Source: Ignavibacteriota bacterium
GTDB taxonomy: Bacteria; Bacteroidota; Ignavibacteria; UBA10030; SZUA-254
Assembly (NCBI GenBank): GCA_016212665.1
Contig: JACREZ010000025.1
Coordinates: 62,001-126,000 of the forward strand
Reading direction: 5' to 3'
Length of the DNA stretch: 64,000 nt
The notes under the pieces were generated by a model, which saw only the letters and a list, made by a program, of their open reading frames with translations, was not told the origin of the DNA and did not search any database. Positions 3,556 to 61,533 of this stretch are shown piece after piece (position 1 is the stretch's first letter; each line of letters starts with the position of its first letter). A program made the position numbers and the translations under genes.

Positions 3556-5010
3556 TCACTTCGCTGATTTCAAAATTCCAAGCAAGAACTTCCAGAACTT
3601 CTCAACGGTATCAATGTGAAGTTTTTCATCGGGTGAATGAACTCCTTCCATCGTAGGTCCGAACGAAACCATATCCATTCCCGGAAACTTCTCGCCGATG
3701 ATTCCGCATTCAAGTCCGGCGTGAATTGCTTTCACGTGCGGCTCTTTCTTGTAGAGTTGCTTATACGTTTTCTTTGCAAGATTCAGAATCGGCGATTTGA
3801 GATTTGGTTTCCATCCGGGGTACCCATCCGAATTTTGAACCTTCGCTCCGCCAAGTCTGAAGATGGTAGAAACCGTCTGTACAGCTTCAAGCAACTCGGA
3901 GGCGACCGAACTTCGTTGACTTGTTGCCATGACGATTGCTTTATTCGTCGTGTTAATTACTGCAACATTGGTTGATGTTTCCACGAGACCGGGAATATCC
4001 GCACTCATCTTCAACACACCGTGAGGCAACGACATGATTGTTTGTGTAATTTTGTTCTGTAATGATTTTGCAATCACTTTCCCTTTTCCTGCTTTTTGAA
4101 CTTGGAGTGTTATTGCAAGGTCAGGTTCTACAGTTGCAAGTTCCGCTTTGATAGTTTCATTCATCTTGGCAACTGCCGCCTTGGCTTTATCGAGATTAGC
4201 TTTGGGGACAAAAAGTTGAGCCACGCATTCTCTTGGAATTGCGTTGCGTTTGTTTCCACCGTTTACCGCGCTGAGCCGTGAGCCGAGAGCGTTGAGTTCA
4301 TGAAGAACGCGATTCATAATTTTGATTGCATTACCGCGTCCTTTGTCAATCTCCAATCCCGAATGTCCGCCTTTCAATCCTTTTACACTTACTTCAACTG
4401 CAATTGAGTCGGCTGGAGCGTTTTCAAATTTCACATTCCATGTTGCAAGCGAATCACGTCCACCGGAACAACCGACATACAAAGCGCCTTCTTCTTCCGA
4501 ATCGAGATTCATGAGGGTTTTGCTCTTGAGTAAATCGCCGCCGAGATTACTTGCACCGGTAAGTCCTGTTTCTTCATCAATCGTGAAGAGGAGTTCGAGC
4601 GGTCCATGCTGGAGCGTTTTATCTTCCATAATTGCTAACATCGTTGCGACGGCGATTCCGTTGTCGGCGCCAAGCGTTGTTCCGTTTGCCATGAGCATAT
4701 TGCCTTTGCGAACGAGTTCAATCGGGTCTTTCATGAAGTCATGCTTCTTGTCTGCGTTTTTCTCACAAACCATATCGAGATGTCCCTGCAAACAGAGCGG
4801 CGCGACTTTCTCCCGTCCTTTCGATGCAGGTTTCGACACGACAACATTCATGTATCGGTCTTTCTTAGCTTCACAGCCGAGTTTCTTTGCTGTATCGAGC
4901 ATGTATTTGACAATACGTTCTTCGTGCTTTGAGGGGCGCGGCACTTGCGCAATCTCTGCAAAGTATTTCCAAACGAGTGGTGGTTTTAATCCTTGAATCG
5001 CTTTTGACAT
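3556..5010 (-). CDS. pepD: Aminoacyl-histidine dipeptidase (M20 family, PepD)
   Basis: 484 residues, the usual length for PepD (Xaa-His dipeptidase/beta-alanyl-histidine dipeptidase), a cytosolic dizinc enzyme that hydrolyses dipeptides. Visible metal and catalytic motifs are GHLDMV (H77, D79), TLGADNG (D116) and the general-base pair in TIDEETG (E146/E147). The C-terminal half carries the lid/dimerisation domain and the late-conserved HAGLECG segment. It is the last gene of the OPT-PqqD-MNT-HEPN-PepD run, 31 bp after the HEPN gene. Peptide uptake followed by dipeptide cleavage is a sensible joint function for the transporter and this enzyme. Confidence 0.95.
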   Translation of the reverse strand: MSKAIQGLKPPLVWKYFAEIAQVPRPSKHEERIVKYMLDTAKKLGCEAKKDRYMNVVVSKPASKGREKVAPLCLQGHLDMVCEKNADKKHDFMKDPIELVRKGNMLMANGTTLGADNGIAVATMLAIMEDKTLQHGPLELLFTIDEETGLTGASNLGGDLLKSKTLMNLDSEEEGALYVGCSGGRDSLATWNVKFENAPADSIAVEVSVKGLKGGHSGLEIDKGRGNAIKIMNRVLHELNALGSRLSAVNGGNKRNAIPRECVAQLFVPKANLDKAKAAVAKMNETIKAELATVEPDLAITLQVQKAGKGKVIAKSLQNKITQTIMSLPHGVLKMSADIPGLVETSTNVAVINTTNKAIVMATSQRSSVASELLEAVQTVSTIFRLGGAKVQNSDGYPGWKPNLKSPILNLAKKTYKQLYKKEPHVKAIHAGLECGIIGEKFPGMDMVSFGPTMEGVHSPDEKLHIDTVEKFWKFLLGILKSAK

Positions 5011-5750: not shown

Positions 5751-6109
5751 ACTGTTGCTTTTTCATAGAGCAAGAACTTATCTCTCAACAACTGATTCAC
5801 AAACTTGCCGGTTCGTTCATACATCGAATCAGGTGTTTCGTTAAACGCTCCTCCCATTTTGATTGCAATATCTCCAACGGTTGTGTTCCCGTCGCACTGA
5901 GTCCACACAAAACTTCCGCGCTCATCTAACTTTACTTTGATGTACGGTTTAGGAAGTTTTGTCATTAGCCATCGGGAGATTGCGCCAGTCCGAAATTTGG
6001 GAACAAGGAGAACGACGATGCCGTTCTCCTCTGTTTCCCATTTCAAATTTCGAATCGGTTTTATATCTAACAGGTTGAGTTGTGATTCCTGTTTTTTTGA
6101 TTTGAACAC
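5747..6109 (-). CDS. PqqD-family protein (RRE-like fold)
   Basis: 120 residues. The central and C-terminal part ('LDERGSFVWTQCDGNTTVGDIAIKM ...' and '... FVNQLLRDKFLLYE', each only partly quoted) matches the PqqD pattern L-xxxGxxIWxxxDGxxTVxEI plus a C-terminal helix. PqqD-like domains bind peptide substrates (RiPP recognition elements), but many stand-alone members have no known substrate. The N-terminal ~50 residues are an extra basic segment. It starts 3 bp after the OPT transporter stop and overlaps the MNT gene by 4 bp. No radical SAM or other RiPP enzyme is present in the window, so a RiPP function is only inference. Confidence 0.8.
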   Translation of the reverse strand: MFKSKKQESQLNLLDIKPIRNLKWETEENGIVVLLVPKFRTGAISRWLMTKLPKPYIKVKLDERGSFVWTQCDGNTTVGDIAIKMGGAFNETPDSMYERTGKFVNQLLRDKFLLYEKATV

Positions 6110-8176: not shown

Positions 8177-8253
8177 AAATTCTCTCTTCTATAAATTAGT
8201 GATTAATTCTGTTTTTGAATTCTCTATTTTTTAATACTCATGGTTAGTTTACA

Positions 8254-8745
8254 GTTTACAGTTTCCTGTTTTCTGTTGATAATAACAGGAAACAGAAATC
8301 CGGAAACGGTTTACTACTCTTTATATTTCTGTCCTTTGATACTTGAATTGGTCAGATAGTTGATGAGCCCGTGAATCATCTTTGAAATCTCATCAGTGAG
8401 TTTGTACAGTTTGTCAAATTCATTTTCGTCAACATACGAATAATCTTTGGCTCGATACAATTGAGATTTCACTTCACCGGCAGAACCTTTTGCAATTCCT
8501 AAAAATTGGATGAATTCTTTTCGTCCGCCACGCTCAAAACCTTCAGCGATGTTATCCATGATAGAACCACTTGAAGCACATACCTGATTTCTCAACGCAA
8601 AGTCTTTAGCAAACTGTCCGTTTCGTGAAACGGCATAAATTTCCTGACACAACACTCTCGCTTTCTGCCATGCTTCAATATCTTCAAACCTTTTAATTGT
8701 AGCCATTCACATAACTGTAAAAACTGAAAACAGGAAACAGTAAAC
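8254..8745. repeat. 24-bp inverted repeats flanking a four-helix-bundle gene
   Basis: Left arm 8254-8277 (core CAGTTTCCTGTTTTC) and right arm 8722-8745 (core GAAAACAGGAAACAG) are reverse complements at 22 of 24 positions. They lie 36 bp and 15 bp outside the small ORF at 8314-8706. Both arms are embedded in longer stretches of the same degenerate words (gtttacag, gaaacagg, ccggaaac), and a smaller local hairpin is present at about 8261-8294. The layout resembles a compact mobile cassette, but no target-site duplication is obvious. Confidence 0.7.
8314..8706 (-). CDS. Four-helix-bundle protein (S23/IVP family)
   Basis: 130 residues. It begins 'TIKRFEDIEAWQKARVLCQEIY', then has 'DFALRNQVCASSGSIMDNIAEGFERGGRKEF' (partly quoted), the hallmark of the four-helix-bundle family first described as the protein in 23S rRNA intervening sequences and related to the Avd accessory protein of diversity-generating retroelements. 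The protein forms pentameric helical bundles in known members; its cellular role is unknown. Here there is no rRNA or reverse transcriptase nearby. The gene lies between 24-bp inverted repeats and separates the OPT operon from proline dehydrogenase. A second, divergent paralog is at 10496-10843. Confidence 0.9.
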   Translation of the reverse strand: MATIKRFEDIEAWQKARVLCQEIYAVSRNGQFAKDFALRNQVCASSGSIMDNIAEGFERGGRKEFIQFLGIAKGSAGEVKSQLYRAKDYSYVDENEFDKLYKLTDEISKMIHGLINYLTNSSIKGQKYKE

Positions 8746-8758
8746 CGGAAACAGTAAA

Positions 8759-9910: not shown

Positions 9911-10453
9911 TCAGCCCCAAATCGCGTTTACAAGCCACACCGACATGAGAATTGCAACTACATCCGCTATGATTCCTGCCGGAACTGCTTGCCGGGTTTT
10001 CGTTACACCGACCGCACCGAAATACACCGCCAATACATAGAACGTCGTCTCCCCGCTTCCCATCATAACAGAAACCATTCTTCCAATAAGCGAATCTGCA
10101 CCGTGTGCTTTGAATGTTTCAGACATTACGCCAAGCGCTCCGCTACCGGAGAGCGGACGCACCAACGCCATCGGTAATGTCTCGGATGGCATCCCAATGA
10201 AGTTTGTTATCGGTGAGAGAATCATAAATAAAAAATCCATCGCGCCGCTTGCACGGAATATACCAATCGCTACAAGCATTGCAACAAGGTACGGAATGAT
10301 TCTGACTGCAACATCAAATCCCTCCTTCGCACCTTCTACAAATGCAGTGTAGATTTTTACTTTCTTGATTGCGCCATATACAACTATAAACAACACCAAG
10401 CCGGGGATTGCAATGACTGAAATCGTTTGAATGATTGATACAAAGGTTTCCAT
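9911..10453 (-). CDS. spmB: Nucleoside-recognition/SpmB-like membrane protein
   Basis: 180 residues with 4-5 membrane segments, matching spore maturation protein B and the Gate (nucleoside recognition) domain: 'RIIPYLVAMLVAIGIFRASGAMD', only partly quoted here, 'MALVRPLSGSGALG' and 'SGETTFYVLAVYFGAVG'. SpmA/SpmB pairs occur in many non-sporulating bacteria, where they are thought to act in transport of an unknown solute. The partner spmA lies upstream on the same strand, but the two are separated by a four-helix-bundle gene and its inverted repeats, which looks like an interruption of an ancestral spmA-spmB operon. Confidence 0.88.
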   Translation of the reverse strand: METFVSIIQTISVIAIPGLVLFIVVYGAIKKVKIYTAFVEGAKEGFDVAVRIIPYLVAMLVAIGIFRASGAMDFLFMILSPITNFIGMPSETLPMALVRPLSGSGALGVMSETFKAHGADSLIGRMVSVMMGSGETTFYVLAVYFGAVGVTKTRQAVPAGIIADVVAILMSVWLVNAIWG

Positions 10454-10472
10454 AAAAAGTTCCTTAGCTTTG

Positions 10473-10912
10473 AGCGGTGAGCACTGAGCAGTGATTCATA
10501 GTGATTTAGAAAACCCCATAATCATCCGACTTACTTCTTCAAGATTGTTGAGAAAGTCAAGTCGTTGTTGGTCTGTGATGTAATTACGGCGATGACAGAT
10601 GATAATAATATTCGCGGTTTCGGAAACTGAACGATGAGAAAAATTCAAAAACTGCCTGAATTCGTGTTTTGATGTACTGCCTGAACCTTCTGCAATATTA
10701 TTCGTAATTGACATCGCCGCTGAACGAAGTTGTTCAGCCCACCTGTACTTCCTCTTTTCATCTAATATTTCTGACAAATCAAAAAGATCTTCTGTAACAA
10801 CAGATGCCTTCTTCCAAACTTCAAGTTTTTCAAATCTAAACATAGGGCTTTCCTGAATAAATCGGAGAATATTTACCTACAAACCACTGCTCACTGCTCA
10901 TCGCTCACCGCT
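10473..10912. repeat. 22-bp inverted repeats flanking the second four-helix-bundle gene
   Basis: Left arm 10473-10494 (starts AGCGGTGAGC) and right arm 10891-10912 (ends GCTCACCGCT) are reverse complements at 20 of 22 positions. They bracket the ORF 10496-10843 with 1 bp and 47 bp spacing. The sequence is unrelated to the arms around the first four-helix-bundle gene. The right arm lies inside the 3' end of spmA and encodes its last residues (EAVSDEQ and the stop codon). Confidence 0.75.
10496..10843 (-). CDS. Four-helix-bundle protein (S23/IVP family), second copy
   Basis: 115 residues: 'FRFEKLEVWKKASVVTEDLFDL', then 'AMSITNNIAEGSGSTSKHEFRQFLNFSHRS' (partly quoted) and a C-terminal helix 'LEEVSRMIMGFSKSL'. 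These are the family hallmarks (LEVWKKA; NIAEG-G; EFxxFLxxAxxS). It is clearly diverged from the copy at 8314-8706, so this is not a recent tandem duplication. The gene sits between spmA and spmB, enclosed by 22-bp inverted repeats, with no rRNA nearby. Function is unknown; the context suggests insertion as a cassette. Confidence 0.9.
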   Translation of the reverse strand: MFRFEKLEVWKKASVVTEDLFDLSEILDEKRKYRWAEQLRSAAMSITNNIAEGSGSTSKHEFRQFLNFSHRSVSETANIIIICHRRNYITDQQRLDFLNNLEEVSRMIMGFSKSL

Positions 10913-11877
10913 TCATCTAATTGTTTCTTAAATATTCGGAATCTTGAAAGAATTTTTACAACGATTATTCCTACGGTTGTGTTTACCGTGGTAGCAATGA
11001 TAACAGGACCCAATATCTCCGTCGGATTCGAAGAACCTGACGCCGCACGAATTGCAATAACCGTTGCGGGAATGAGTTGTACACTACTCGTATTAATCAC
11101 AAGAAACGTACACATTGCATCTGTTGCAGTTCCGATTTTTTTGTTGAGTTTGTTTAACTCTTCCATTGCTTTCAATCCGAATGGAGTTGCGGCGTTTGCA
11201 AGTCCGAGCATGTTCGATGAGATATTCATTATCATCGCTCCCATTGCAGGATGGTCGGCGGGAACATCAGGAAAGAGTCGAGTGGTGACAGGTTTCAAGA
11301 GTGTGGCAAGTTTGCTGACGAGTCCCGATTGGTCTGCTATTTTCATAATGCCAAGCCACAACGCCATGATACCGATTAAACCAAGCGCAAGTTCAACTGC
11401 CGTCTTTGCATATTTGATGATTCCGTCGTTTGTTACCTGACTTACTCTGACAAATTTTACCGGGTCAAACATAACAACTGCGGTTTGATTTGTTCCATCA
11501 ATTCGTACTTTAGCAAGAAGATACTCCGTGTTCCGTTGCGCTTTGAAAATATCTTTCCAAAGTACAGGAGTATGTTCATCCGGGAAAATGTGGAGCGCAC
11601 CCTGTTCGCCCGAACTTGTCAACAGTTCCGCTTTCTGTGCGATTCGTTCACTCGCCAAAGAAACACCATACGCTGATTGATAATCACGCGCATCGAGTAA
11701 AATGGTACAGTCATACTTTTTATTCGGCTCGATGATAGTTACATCATTCGGCAATTGAAGAGTTACTTCCAATTCCTCTCCATTCTGATATTTGTTCGAT
11801 GACATCTCGCCGATGTCCGTTCCAACTGCGACAAGTATCCCGATAACAATCAACGAGAGCCAAATGTAATTCATCAT
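10891..11877 (-). CDS. spmA: Nucleoside-recognition/SpmA-like membrane protein
   Basis: About 328 residues from the ATG at 11877, chosen because GGAAGA lies ~8 bp upstream and the protein then begins with a membrane segment (MMNYIWLSLIVIGILVAVGT); the longer frame from a TTG at 11940 adds 21 residues without a ribosome site. An inserted periplasmic region (~40-170) is followed by the Gate domain: 'ALGLIGIMALWLGIMKIADQSG', 'MNISSNMLGLANAATPFGLKAM', 'FLVINTSSVQLIPATVIAIR' (all partly quoted). The C-terminal seven residues are encoded by an inverted repeat. It is the partner of spmB downstream. Confidence 0.88.
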   Translation of the reverse strand: MMNYIWLSLIVIGILVAVGTDIGEMSSNKYQNGEELEVTLQLPNDVTIIEPNKKYDCTILLDARDYQSAYGVSLASERIAQKAELLTSSGEQGALHIFPDEHTPVLWKDIFKAQRNTEYLLAKVRIDGTNQTAVVMFDPVKFVRVSQVTNDGIIKYAKTAVELALGLIGIMALWLGIMKIADQSGLVSKLATLLKPVTTRLFPDVPADHPAMGAMIMNISSNMLGLANAATPFGLKAMEELNKLNKKIGTATDAMCTFLVINTSSVQLIPATVIAIRAASGSSNPTEILGPVIIATTVNTTVGIIVVKILSRFRIFKKQLDEAVSDEQ

Positions 11878-11991
11878 AAATGAAATCTTCCAATGTGAAA
11901 TAAAACGTGTGAATATAGGAGATTCTTGCTGAGGAATCAACCATTTTAGGATATGGATTTCAAAAATAGTATTTTTGTCCGCTTAATTTTC

Positions 11992-14414: not shown

Positions 14415-14582
14415 ATTCGTTTTCCATAGTTGAGATTAATTGAGGCGGACAAAAATACCTATCATATAGACGAAAAACAAAAGAAGGATTTTCTGTTTAC
14501 AGTCTTTTTCATTCCTACCACCTATCACCAATCACCTAAATCATCCAAATGACAAATGACTATTGACGAATAACCAATAGAC

Positions 14583-20740: not shown

Positions 20741-20818
20741 GGTTAGAGGTTTCAGGTTTGAGGTTACAGTTTTATGGTTTGTAGTGAAATTCAAACCACT
20801 AACCACTAACCACTAACC
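20741..20818. repeat. Empty short-word inverted repeat
   Basis: The left half (20741-20781) is built from GGTTAGAGGTTT/GGTTTGAGGTT words and the right half (20792-20818) from CCACTAAC units repeated three times. They are imperfect reverse complements and form a hairpin with a short loop. This resembles the inverted repeats around the four-helix-bundle genes but encloses no gene. Confidence 0.6.
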
Positions 20819-20826
20819 AATTTTTT

Positions 20827-25634: not shown

Positions 25635-25801
25635 GATAAATAGTTTTTTGTTTTTATTCTCTTGTTATTAGTTATTTGTCATTCGTCATTGGTGAAATAC
25701 TTGATACCGGATTGTGTTCATAATCGCCCCTGCACTCTACACTCTACACTCTACGCCCTTGCACGAATGGGAAACACGCGGTCATCCACAACTCAAATCT
25801 T

Positions 25802-39196: not shown

Positions 39197-39204
39197 AAAA
39201 CGAT

Positions 39205-39365
39205 TTAAGATTTATGATTCAGGATTTTTGATTCTTGATGTTTGATGCTCGGTTTATGAAACAGAAAACAGGAAACGGGAAACAGGAAACTGAAGCCAGG
39301 AAACTGAAAACCCAAAACCCGAAACCCGAAACTACAAACTCCACAACTCCAATACTCCGATACTC
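39205..39365. repeat. Short-word repeat tract spanning the folC 5' end
   Basis: A chain of degenerate direct repeats: gatttatgattcagg/gattcttgatg, then gaaacaggaaac-type words (39256-39320), then aactccaatactcc-type words (39325-39365). The tract continues without a break into the folC reading frame. Confidence 0.7.
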
Positions 39366-40647
39366 CAATCCGCTTGAGTTTCTCTACTCCCTCCAACAAT
39401 TCGGAATCAAACTCGGACTCCGAAACATCCAACTGTTGTGTGAGTTTCTCGGGAATCCCGAACGAAAATTTCCGTCCGTTCATATTGCAGGCACGAACGG
39501 GAAGGGTTCAACCTCTGCCATGCTTGCGGCGATTCTTACTGCTTCCGGTTATCGAACAGGGCTGTATACTTCTCCACATCTTGTCGAATTCAATGAACGA
39601 ATAAGAATTGACGGGAAAAAGATTTCCGATGAACAGATTGCAGATTACTGCAAGTACCTCAAACCGAAAATTATTGAAACGAAATCAACATTCTTCGAAT
39701 CAACAACGGCAATCGCTTTCAAATATTTTGCCGATGAGAAGGTGGACATTGCAATCATCGAAACGGGATTGGGGGGAAGATTTGATGCGACGAATGTTGT
39801 CACGCCGTTACTCAGCATTATCACCAACATCGGACTTGACCATACAGAACATCTCGGTAAAACGCTTGCCGAAATTGCTCTTGAAAAAGCGGGCATCATC
39901 AAAAGAAATATTCCTTGCATGTTTGAAGCAAACGAGCGAGAAACAAGAACCGTCATTCGAAACGTAGCAAAGAATAATTATTCAAGAGTAATTGAACCGC
40001 AACGTTCCGGTTTACTGAGTGTTGCGGAAAATTCTTTGGAAGGATTGACTGTCAACCTGTGGACAACGAAAAGGAACTATCGCTCACTCCGTACATCTCT
40101 CCCCGGCAACCATCAGCAACTCAATCTTCGCCTTGCTGTTCATGGAGCCGAACATCTAAAACATGAGTGTGGCTTTGACAACATTACTATCAAATCTATG
40201 AAGCATGGATTGAAAAATATTCAATCGCTTGCGGGACTTCATGCACGTCTCGAAGTCATTAGCAACGAGCCGCTTATCGTTGCTGATGTTGCACACAATC
40301 CTGAAGGAATCAATGCGGCGATTCGTTCATTGAAGCAAATGCTTTTCAGCCGTCCCGTTGTTGTGTTTGGAGTGATGAAAGATAAAGAGTATCAAACAAT
40401 GATTGATTCAATCACGAAGTTTGCCCGGCACGTCATTGCAGTTCAGCCAAAAACTGAGAGAGCATTATCAAGCAAGGAACTGACAGAGAAATTTCATGCA
40501 AAACAATTCCCAACATATAACGGCGGAACGGTTGTGAACGGACTTTCACTTGCTCAATCGTTTGTTCGCCCTAATGAGGCAATTGTCATTTTCGGGTCAC
40601 ATTATGTTGTGGGAGAAGCATTTGAAGCGCTTCATATTCAAACGTAG
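39256..40647 (+). CDS. folC: Folylpolyglutamate/dihydrofolate synthase
   Basis: About 463 residues from the ATG at 39256 (another in-frame ATG is at 39238). The conserved protein begins near residue ~37 with 'NPLEFLYSLQQFGIKLGL' and continues 'HIAGTNGKGSTSAML' (P-loop), 'TSPHLVEFNERI', 'TTAIAFKYFADEKVDIAIIETGLGGRFDATN' (partly quoted), 'VADVAHNPEGINAAI' and 'VVFGVMKDKEY'. It ligates glutamate to dihydropteroate or folates. Residues 1-36 (MKQKTGNGKQETEARKLKTQ and following) are encoded entirely by short-word repeats and look unlike any FolC N-terminus. No other ATG, GTG or TTG lies between the repeat and the conserved start. Confidence 0.93.
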   Translation: MKQKTGNGKQETEARKLKTQNPKPETTNSTTPILRYSNPLEFLYSLQQFGIKLGLRNIQLLCEFLGNPERKFPSVHIAGTNGKGSTSAMLAAILTASGYRTGLYTSPHLVEFNERIRIDGKKISDEQIADYCKYLKPKIIETKSTFFESTTAIAFKYFADEKVDIAIIETGLGGRFDATNVVTPLLSIITNIGLDHTEHLGKTLAEIALEKAGIIKRNIPCMFEANERETRTVIRNVAKNNYSRVIEPQRSGLLSVAENSLEGLTVNLWTTKRNYRSLRTSLPGNHQQLNLRLAVHGAEHLKHECGFDNITIKSMKHGLKNIQSLAGLHARLEVISNEPLIVADVAHNPEGINAAIRSLKQMLFSRPVVVFGVMKDKEYQTMIDSITKFARHVIAVQPKTERALSSKELTEKFHAKQFPTYNGGTVVNGLSLAQSFVRPNEAIVIFGSHYVVGEAFEALHIQT

Positions 40648-59439: not shown

Positions 59440-59631
59440 GGCGTCATGAACCCTTCCACAACGCCCATTAATTTTTCACTCTTCATAATCAAACTACACT
59501 CACCACTCACCAATTAACCAATCACCAATCCGCAATTCACAATTTCGGAACGAAGTGGAGATCCGCCGTGGCAGACGCAATCTGAAATCAAAAATCAATC
59601 CGCAATCCAAAATCCGAAATCCGAAATTCGT
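59440..59631. repeat. Short-word direct repeats
   Basis: Loose arrays of ccactcacc, caattaaccaatcacc, and ccgaaatccgaaattcg-type words fill most of the spacer between the propeller and the helical protein. No gene is visible. The words belong to the same style seen near folC, folD and the four-helix-bundle genes. Confidence 0.6.
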
Positions 59632-60345: not shown

Positions 60346-60560
60346 AACTGTATCCTTAATTATTGAATGAATAAAAATGATTTAGTGAAAAACTCATATT
60401 GGTAGGGCAGGCATTTGCCAAAGGCATCACCTTGTGACCTGCCTGCCATGAATGATATTGAAAAAATAAACCCGTTCCCCTCTGAAAGAAAACACTCACT
60501 TATTGGAAACACAATCCCGCACGTAGGAAAAACACAAAAAGAAAGAAAAAATACCTCATC

Positions 60561-60918
60561 ACCCTTGGAAAACAATCCCGCGCCATTGGAAAACCTCTTA
60601 TCACCATCGGGAAACAATTCCGCGCCATTGGAAAACCTCCCCTCACCATCGGAAAACAATCCCGCGCCATTGGAAAACCTCCCCTCAACATCAGAAAACC
60701 GTCCCGCGCCATTGGAAAACCTCTTATCACCATCGGAAAACAATCCCGCGCCATTGGAAAACCTCCCCTCACCATCGGAAAACAATTCCGCGCCATTGGA
60801 ACCCCCACCACCACCATCGGGAAGCCGTTCCGCGCCGTTGGAAAACGTCCGAAAACTTTTGGGAAACAGTTCCGCGCCGTCGGGAAGCCCGTTTTTACCC
60901 CCTGAGTGGGGAAACAAG
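60561..60918. repeat. 21-bp tandem array (about 17 units)
   Basis: Alternating 21-bp units, 'CCATTGGAAAACC...' and 'CCATCGGAAAACA...', form 42-bp pairs with substitutions and no length change except at the ends. Consensus words are CCATTGGAAAACCTCCCCTCA (units A, partly variable) and CCATCGGAAAACAATCCCGC (units B). Because 21 is a multiple of 3, long frames stay open in several frames; the 202-residue minus-strand and 171-residue plus-strand frames (heptad repeats) are probably consequences. Located upstream of the helical gene, between it and non-coding DNA. Confidence 0.85.
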
Positions 60919-60968
60919 AAGAGTAAATAGCCTATTTTGCTATTAAAGTGGGAAAAGCGCGATTTCAT

Positions 60969-61310: not shown

Positions 61311-61514
61311 CCAAATAATTCAACCCCCATCATATCTCAAATCCCATATCTCAAATCTTAACTACTCCATTACTCCATTACTCCATTACTCCATTACTCC
61401 ACATCTCCACAGTGTACCACTCACGAACTACATATCGAAACTAAATAATCCACCCCCATCATATCTCACATCCCATATCTCAAATCTCAACTACTCCATC
61501 ACTCCATCACTCCA
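61311..61514. repeat. Direct duplication with ACTCCATT octamer arrays
   Basis: A ~75-bp block beginning caacccccatcatatctca at 61321 recurs with few changes from about 61451 (cacccccatcatatctca). Each copy ends in a tandem array: ACTCCATT about four to five times in the first, ACTCCATC three times in the second. No gene is encoded. Confidence 0.75.
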
Positions 61515-61533
61515 TTTCTCGTATCTCAACTAC

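Follow-up and report, generated by a model that had tools for sequence, protein, structure and literature searches.

The junction between spmA-like and spmB-like genes of an Ignavibacteriota bacterium (GenBank assembly GCA_016212665.1) was analyzed within a 64,000-nucleotide (nt) stretch of contig JACREZ010000025.1 (positions 62,001 to 126,000), hereafter the window. All coordinates refer to window positions. This junction is occupied by a gene of the PF05635 family (23S_rRNA_IVP, here S23), which is enclosed by two inverted arms (Table 1). The encoded protein scored 101.5 bits against the PF05635 profile (cut-off 33.8) and is thus a member of this family. The flanking genes both belong to PF07670 (Gate), and the names SpmA and SpmB were assigned to them from gene order and family. 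The PF05635 gene is the only open reading frame (ORF) within the element. A known RNA family at the locus was ruled out, as no Rfam match was obtained between positions 6000 and 13000.

The core arms (10473-10494 and 10891-10912) are complementary at 20 of 22 positions (91%), and a looser version of the repeat, listed in Table 1, extends over 36 nt with 81% complementarity. The local score of this arm pair was 37, compared with a mean of 18.3 and a maximum of 26 for shuffled sequences. A first-pass annotation of the window had described the segment as a second four-helix-bundle gene that lies in its own inverted repeat and splits spmA from spmB, and both descriptions were confirmed. It had also stated that the right arm encodes the last seven codons and the stop of spmA. 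The arm does provide the stop codon and the C-terminal codons, but only six of these are complete (A V S D E Q), while the seventh is merely touched. Each arm is a degenerate tandem array of heptamers of the form (R)G[AG]GCNN, for example TGAGCGG TGAGCAC TGAGCAG. The element has the defining features of heptamer simple sequence repeats (SSRs) and short tandemly repeated repetitive sequences (STRRs), namely 7-nt units repeated in tandem close to gene boundaries in intergenic DNA. The segment is probably one of a family of ~450-bp single-gene elements that consist of a PF05635 gene and two inverted arms.

Table 1. Features of the S23 element at the spmA-spmB junction, of the first S23 copy, and of a solo array in the window.
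Feature	Position	Strand	Description or basis
PF05635 (23S_rRNA_IVP/S23) gene	10496..10843	(-)	115 amino acids, four-helix bundle; profile match and AlphaFold model
Upstream arm, GAGC heptamers, TGAGCGATGAGCAGTGAGCAGTG	10877..10912	(-)	Overlaps spmA end and stop
Downstream arm, GAGC heptamers inverted, TGAGCGGTGAGCACTGAGCAGTG	10466..10501	(+)	Overlaps S23 stop
spmA-like gene (PF07670 Gate), upstream neighbor	10891..11940	(-)	Start codon uncertain
spmB-like gene (PF07670 Gate), downstream neighbor	9911..10453	(-)	Family and gene order
Paralogous PF05635 gene (first copy)	8314..8706	(-)	27% amino acid identity to the S23 copy between spmA and spmB
Upstream arm of first copy, GTTTNCNG heptamers	8722..8752	(-)	Inverted-repeat analysis
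Downstream arm of first copy, GTTTACA heptamers	8247..8277	(+)	Inverted-repeat analysis
Solo GAGC array of 3 cores; no S23 gene and no inverted partner	4273..4290	(+)	Pattern search

The first S23 copy in the window is also flanked by degenerate period-7 tandem arrays, which are of the GTTTACAG type, unlike the GAGC arms at the spmA-spmB junction. The two copies are separate paralogs with unrelated arm sequences, as had been annotated. The genome contains 11 PF05635 genes, and the inverted arms of 10 of these scored above shuffled flanks. Most of these arms are period-7 or period-8 tandem arrays, with units that differ between copies.

PF05635 "four helix bundle" genes, which have no assigned function, were found in 116 of the 148 genomes sampled in the phylum. 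To survey the arms, 143 nonredundant loci were used, with a null composed of arms taken from different loci. The median score of the upstream arm against the downstream arm was 33, compared with 18 for mismatched arms, and 66% of the loci exceeded 99% of the null. The variation of arm sequence with retention of the inverted layout, which had been proposed as a check, was thus observed both in this genome and across the phylum. The autocorrelation of the flanks peaked at lags of 7, 14, and 21 (also 8 and 16), whereas control flanks showed the codon period only. Of 266 arms, 253 had a best period of 7 (197 arms) or 8 (56 arms), most commonly with 4-5 units per arm, and the periodicity was equally strong in both arms. 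Read inward, the arms are poor in C (8.5% C versus 25% G), with G exceeding C in 90 of 97.

Arm likeness was expressed as 4-mer cosine for pairs of loci with unrelated flanks. It was 0.10 for proteins of <25% identity, 0.37 at 60-70% (n = 17), and 0.77 at >70% (n = 3), and the correlation between protein identity and arm similarity was reached by none of 300 permutations. On the protein tree, 12 changes between periods 7 and 8 were counted; 2000 shuffles averaged 20.2 changes and never gave fewer than 14. When named genomes were scanned with the protein clade of the window copy, 80 loci (39-61% identical) were obtained in about ten phyla, including Nitrospirota, Bacteroidota, Verrucomicrobiota, Lentisphaerota, Kiritimatiellota, Marinimicrobia, Desulfobacterota, Omnitrophota, and Cloacimonadota. 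None of these 80 loci adjoins spmA or spmB. In 58 of them, G[AG]GC cores at a spacing of 7 were present on one side or both, compared with ~1% of 198 other PF05635 loci. The mismatched-pair null of the 80-locus set was itself high, as the arms of different phyla match one another, and a GGCGTTT arm variant occurs in a Pedobacter subclade. Carriage of the clade by phages was rejected, as no match to it was found in phages. Judged from these sequence comparisons, the arm unit and its period go with the protein clade, also where the loci are unrelated. The difference in arms between the two window copies can be attributed to their proteins belonging to different clades.

The same layout is shared by S23 copies on cyanobacterial plasmids, which encode relatives of the protein XCC0516. 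Their arms scored at least 52 at six of ten loci (TAGGGAG, GGGAACA, GGGTGTA, and others), with one of the six (L377) being less clean because it aligns through a neighboring gene, and with a cross-matched null of the ten loci that reached 59 owing to the similarity of arms among loci. The L377 gene, on the Anabaena sp. 90 plasmid pANA02 (NC_019429.1), is located in a type I-D CRISPR (clustered regularly interspaced short palindromic repeats) operon, with cas6 and cas4 as its neighbors and a long AGGTGACAGGGAACAG array upstream.

Placement was examined for 103 elements that remained after redundancy reduction. Eighty of these lie between two genes that are codirectional with S23, and six lie between two genes of the opposite direction (p = 1e-17). 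The outer arm edge is at a median distance of 0 nt from the upstream stop codon, and the implied empty junction is ~12 nt long. Operon junctions are short, which accounts for part of this pattern but not for the orientation bias. The sense rule is broken by L378 on the Nostoc edaphicum plasmid pNe_5, an S23 element that lies antisense between two ribonucleotide reductase genes and has near-perfect TAGGGAG arms.

The spmA-spmB junction carries S23 and GAGC-type arms in five genomes (G000, G001, G003, G016, and G030), while S23 is missing from this junction in G002, which is of the same genus, and in most other relatives. The gap between spmA and spmB in these insert-free relatives is usually a few tens of nt or less. 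The comparison with related species that the first-pass annotation had suggested thus indicates that the insertion is not an old fixed feature. In another genus, one junction has flanks that are 87-93% identical between species, yet S23 proteins of 57% identity and unrelated arms. Three further junctions show a similar swap of gene and arms. Several S23 elements of that genus (L084, L130, L140, L173, L200, and L202) lie at consecutive junctions of an apparent phenylacetate (paa) operon, where gene and arms are swapped between species with flanks that are ~90% identical. Both arms have changed together in some ortholog pairs with proteins that are still 96% identical, such as L140 and L130, where arm similarities are 0.92 and 0.75 within the elements and 0.50 between them. 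In most very close ortholog pairs, each arm is simply conserved. These swaps are signs of exchange as a unit and of matched turnover of the arms, although alone they do not separate mobility from recombination.

Arrays also occur without an S23 gene. The pattern GRGCNNN repeated three times gave 43 hits in this genome, compared with 5 for the reversed pattern. The hits correspond to ~27 arrays, and only one pair of GAGC arrays flanks an S23 gene. None of the other GAGC arrays has an inverted GAGC partner within ~420 nt, so the explanation of solo arrays as deletion derivatives of two-armed elements was rejected. Among 149 genomes, an array excess of at least 15 was found in 5 of the 10 that carry the clade and in 4 of the 139 others (p = 5e-5, uncorrected for relatedness), and several carriers showed no such excess. 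The intergenic DNA of the window contains 17 arrays of period 7 and 2 of period 8, with nearly none of periods 5-6 or 9-12. In most of the S23-less arrays (13 of 16, counted by hand), the C-poor strand is directed away from the gene boundary closest to it. Such S23-less period-7 and period-8 arrays, with several unit types side by side, occur at gene junctions at 20741-20772, 20794-20819, 25664-25759, 39202-39369, 59497-59630, 61330-61520, and 14514-14579. The 8-mer ATGGAGTA at 61363-61411 is identical to the unit that makes up the arms of L009, another S23 copy in the genome. A coding minisatellite at 60557-60878, composed of 42-bp and 126-bp tandem repeats within the ORF 60360-60968, is unrelated to the S23 arrays.

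The AlphaFold model of the window S23 protein (predicted local distance difference test score 96) matched the homologs 2gsc and 2rld with a template modeling (TM) score of ~0.9, and the Avd fold (4dwl and 8ube) with a TM score of ~0.79. Both homologs comprise five chains. From the anatomy, clade specificity, placement, presence/absence pattern, and joint replacement described above, we infer that the element is, with somewhat better than even probability, a small selfish or mobile module composed of a pentameric four-helix-bundle protein and its cognate arrays, with array binding and a mobility enzyme as the conjectural parts. The arms would be recognition arrays of the encoded protein, and S23, whose function is so far unassigned, probably recognizes the repeat code of its own clade. 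One repeat unit could be bound per pentamer subunit, since 4-5 units per arm would fit a pentamer. We favor recognition of the arrays in DNA, because the arm mismatches show no G·U preference and both arms are equally periodic; recognition in RNA is also possible. Protein and arrays would coevolve and would move, or be swapped, as a single unit. The gene would probably ride on the transcription of the host operon, and some host or trans-acting enzyme would perform the DNA work. Solo arrays may be relics of S23 elements or trans targets of S23 proteins.

Several observations weigh against such a module. About one third of the surveyed copies, and one copy in this genome (L008), have weak or no detectable arms. 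No transposase was recognized in the element, where the PF05635 gene is the sole ORF, and an enzyme acting in trans was searched for only as RVT_1. No RVT_1 match was obtained in this genome despite its 11 S23 copies, and a reverse transcriptase in trans was therefore rejected. Survivorship in tight junctions may be part of the reason for the operon placement, and the empty sites could also be losses. No target-site duplication was recognized by eye when the filled G000 and empty G002 junctions were compared. Recent transposition was not caught either, as even the closest copies at nonhomologous sites share no more than 79% protein identity.

The alternative that survives best, although we consider it unlikely, is host regulation: a resident, nonmobile S23 protein would act in trans on heptamer arrays that lie at operon junctions, binding them as DNA or mRNA, and its own arms would be autoregulatory. 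The many solo GAGC arrays in this genome and the array excess in carriers of the GAGC clade are consistent with such a role, as is the position of published heptamer arrays near start and stop codons (PMC4679880, PMC4692102). However, several carriers lack the excess, S23 is absent from the spmA-spmB junction of a same-genus genome, and at fixed sites the gene is replaced along with its arms. Moreover, autoregulation does not need arrays of near-equal quality on both sides of the gene.

Marginally less probable is an RNA intervening sequence (IVS), the arms of which would pair in the operon mRNA and either loop out the S23 ORF, keeping the spmA stop and spmB start close, or be cut by RNase III as in 23S rRNA IVSs, with the pairing under selection. 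A strong fold is predicted for the sense RNA of the window element (z = -6.9; -2.6 for the first copy), the sense-orientation bias of 80:6 agrees with this, and in Coxiella an IVS with a 28-bp stem and an S23 ORF is excised by RNase III (PMC4990558). In contrast, selection on an RNA stem was not supported by the wobble test, as 75 arm mismatches were G·U-compatible and 95 were A·C, with no excess of G·U (p = 0.14). Solo GAGC arrays lack an inverted GAGC partner, and from pairing alone, arm units would not be expected to match protein clades across phyla. The first-pass annotation had proposed a local origin or choice of the arms at each insertion, which would agree with the unrelated arms among copies of one genome; this is contradicted, and now highly improbable, because unit and period follow the protein across nonhomologous loci and phyla. 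Chance proximity of generic, slippage-prone heptamer repeats to S23 genes is equally implausible: period-7 arrays are common in the intergenic DNA of the window, but matched units on both sides of the gene and a unit that follows the protein clade argue against it.

The selfish module composed of S23 and its arrays may have a wider bearing. Tentatively, and at slightly less than even odds in our judgment, PF05635/S23 proteins would be sequence-specific readers of tandem arrays with a clade-specific 7/8-nt code, and many unexplained bacterial heptamer repeats (GGGAATC, TAACTGA, cyanobacterial STRRs, and GAGC) would be binding sites or footprints of a widespread one-gene selfish element that homes to operon junctions. 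The function of S23 and the heptamer repeats of several phyla, both unexplained, would then become one question, namely whether each S23 protein binds its own array.

Among known systems, repetitive extragenic palindromic (REP)/REPtron elements and miniature inverted-repeat transposable elements (MITEs) are likewise short, intergenic, and bounded by inverted repeats, with gene-less copies. In contrast to insertion sequences and MITEs, which are defined by a transposase and fixed terminal repeats, the sole ORF here is PF05635, the arms are tandem arrays that vary between clades, and no target duplication was recognized. Avd of diversity-generating retroelements shares the four-helix-bundle fold but belongs to a different sequence family; this genome has no RVT_1, and template/variable repeats were not searched for. 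The closest relatives by family are the 23S rRNA IVSs with S23/IVP ORFs of Leptospira and Coxiella (PF05635), which are also ~430-450 bp long with terminal inverted repeats around one ORF, as found in the window element. However, the elements described here are located at operon junctions of protein genes, in the window between two PF07670 genes and not inside a 23S rRNA gene, and their arms are clade-specific 7/8-nt tandem arrays.

The solo GAGC arrays resemble published heptamer repeats of Xanthomonas, Nostoc, and Beggiatoaceae. The SSR arrays GGGAATC (Xanthomonas), GGGGAYT (Nostoc), and TAACTGA (Beggiatoaceae) and the cyanobacterial STRRs also have 7-nt units, often in inverted pairs, beside stop or start codons (PMC4692102, PMC4679880). 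In the accessible portions of these reports, the GGGAATC arrays commonly have four units, those of X. campestris share the away-pointing strand geometry of the window arrays (Rehm et al. 2015; PMC4692102), the TAACTGA arrays overlap stop codons (MacGregor 2015; PMC4679880), and the repeats are linked to no S23 gene. The open-access literature yielded no report that links S23 genes to heptamer arrays. X. campestris, the bearer of GGGAATC arrays, also encodes an S23 protein, XCC0516 (2gsc).
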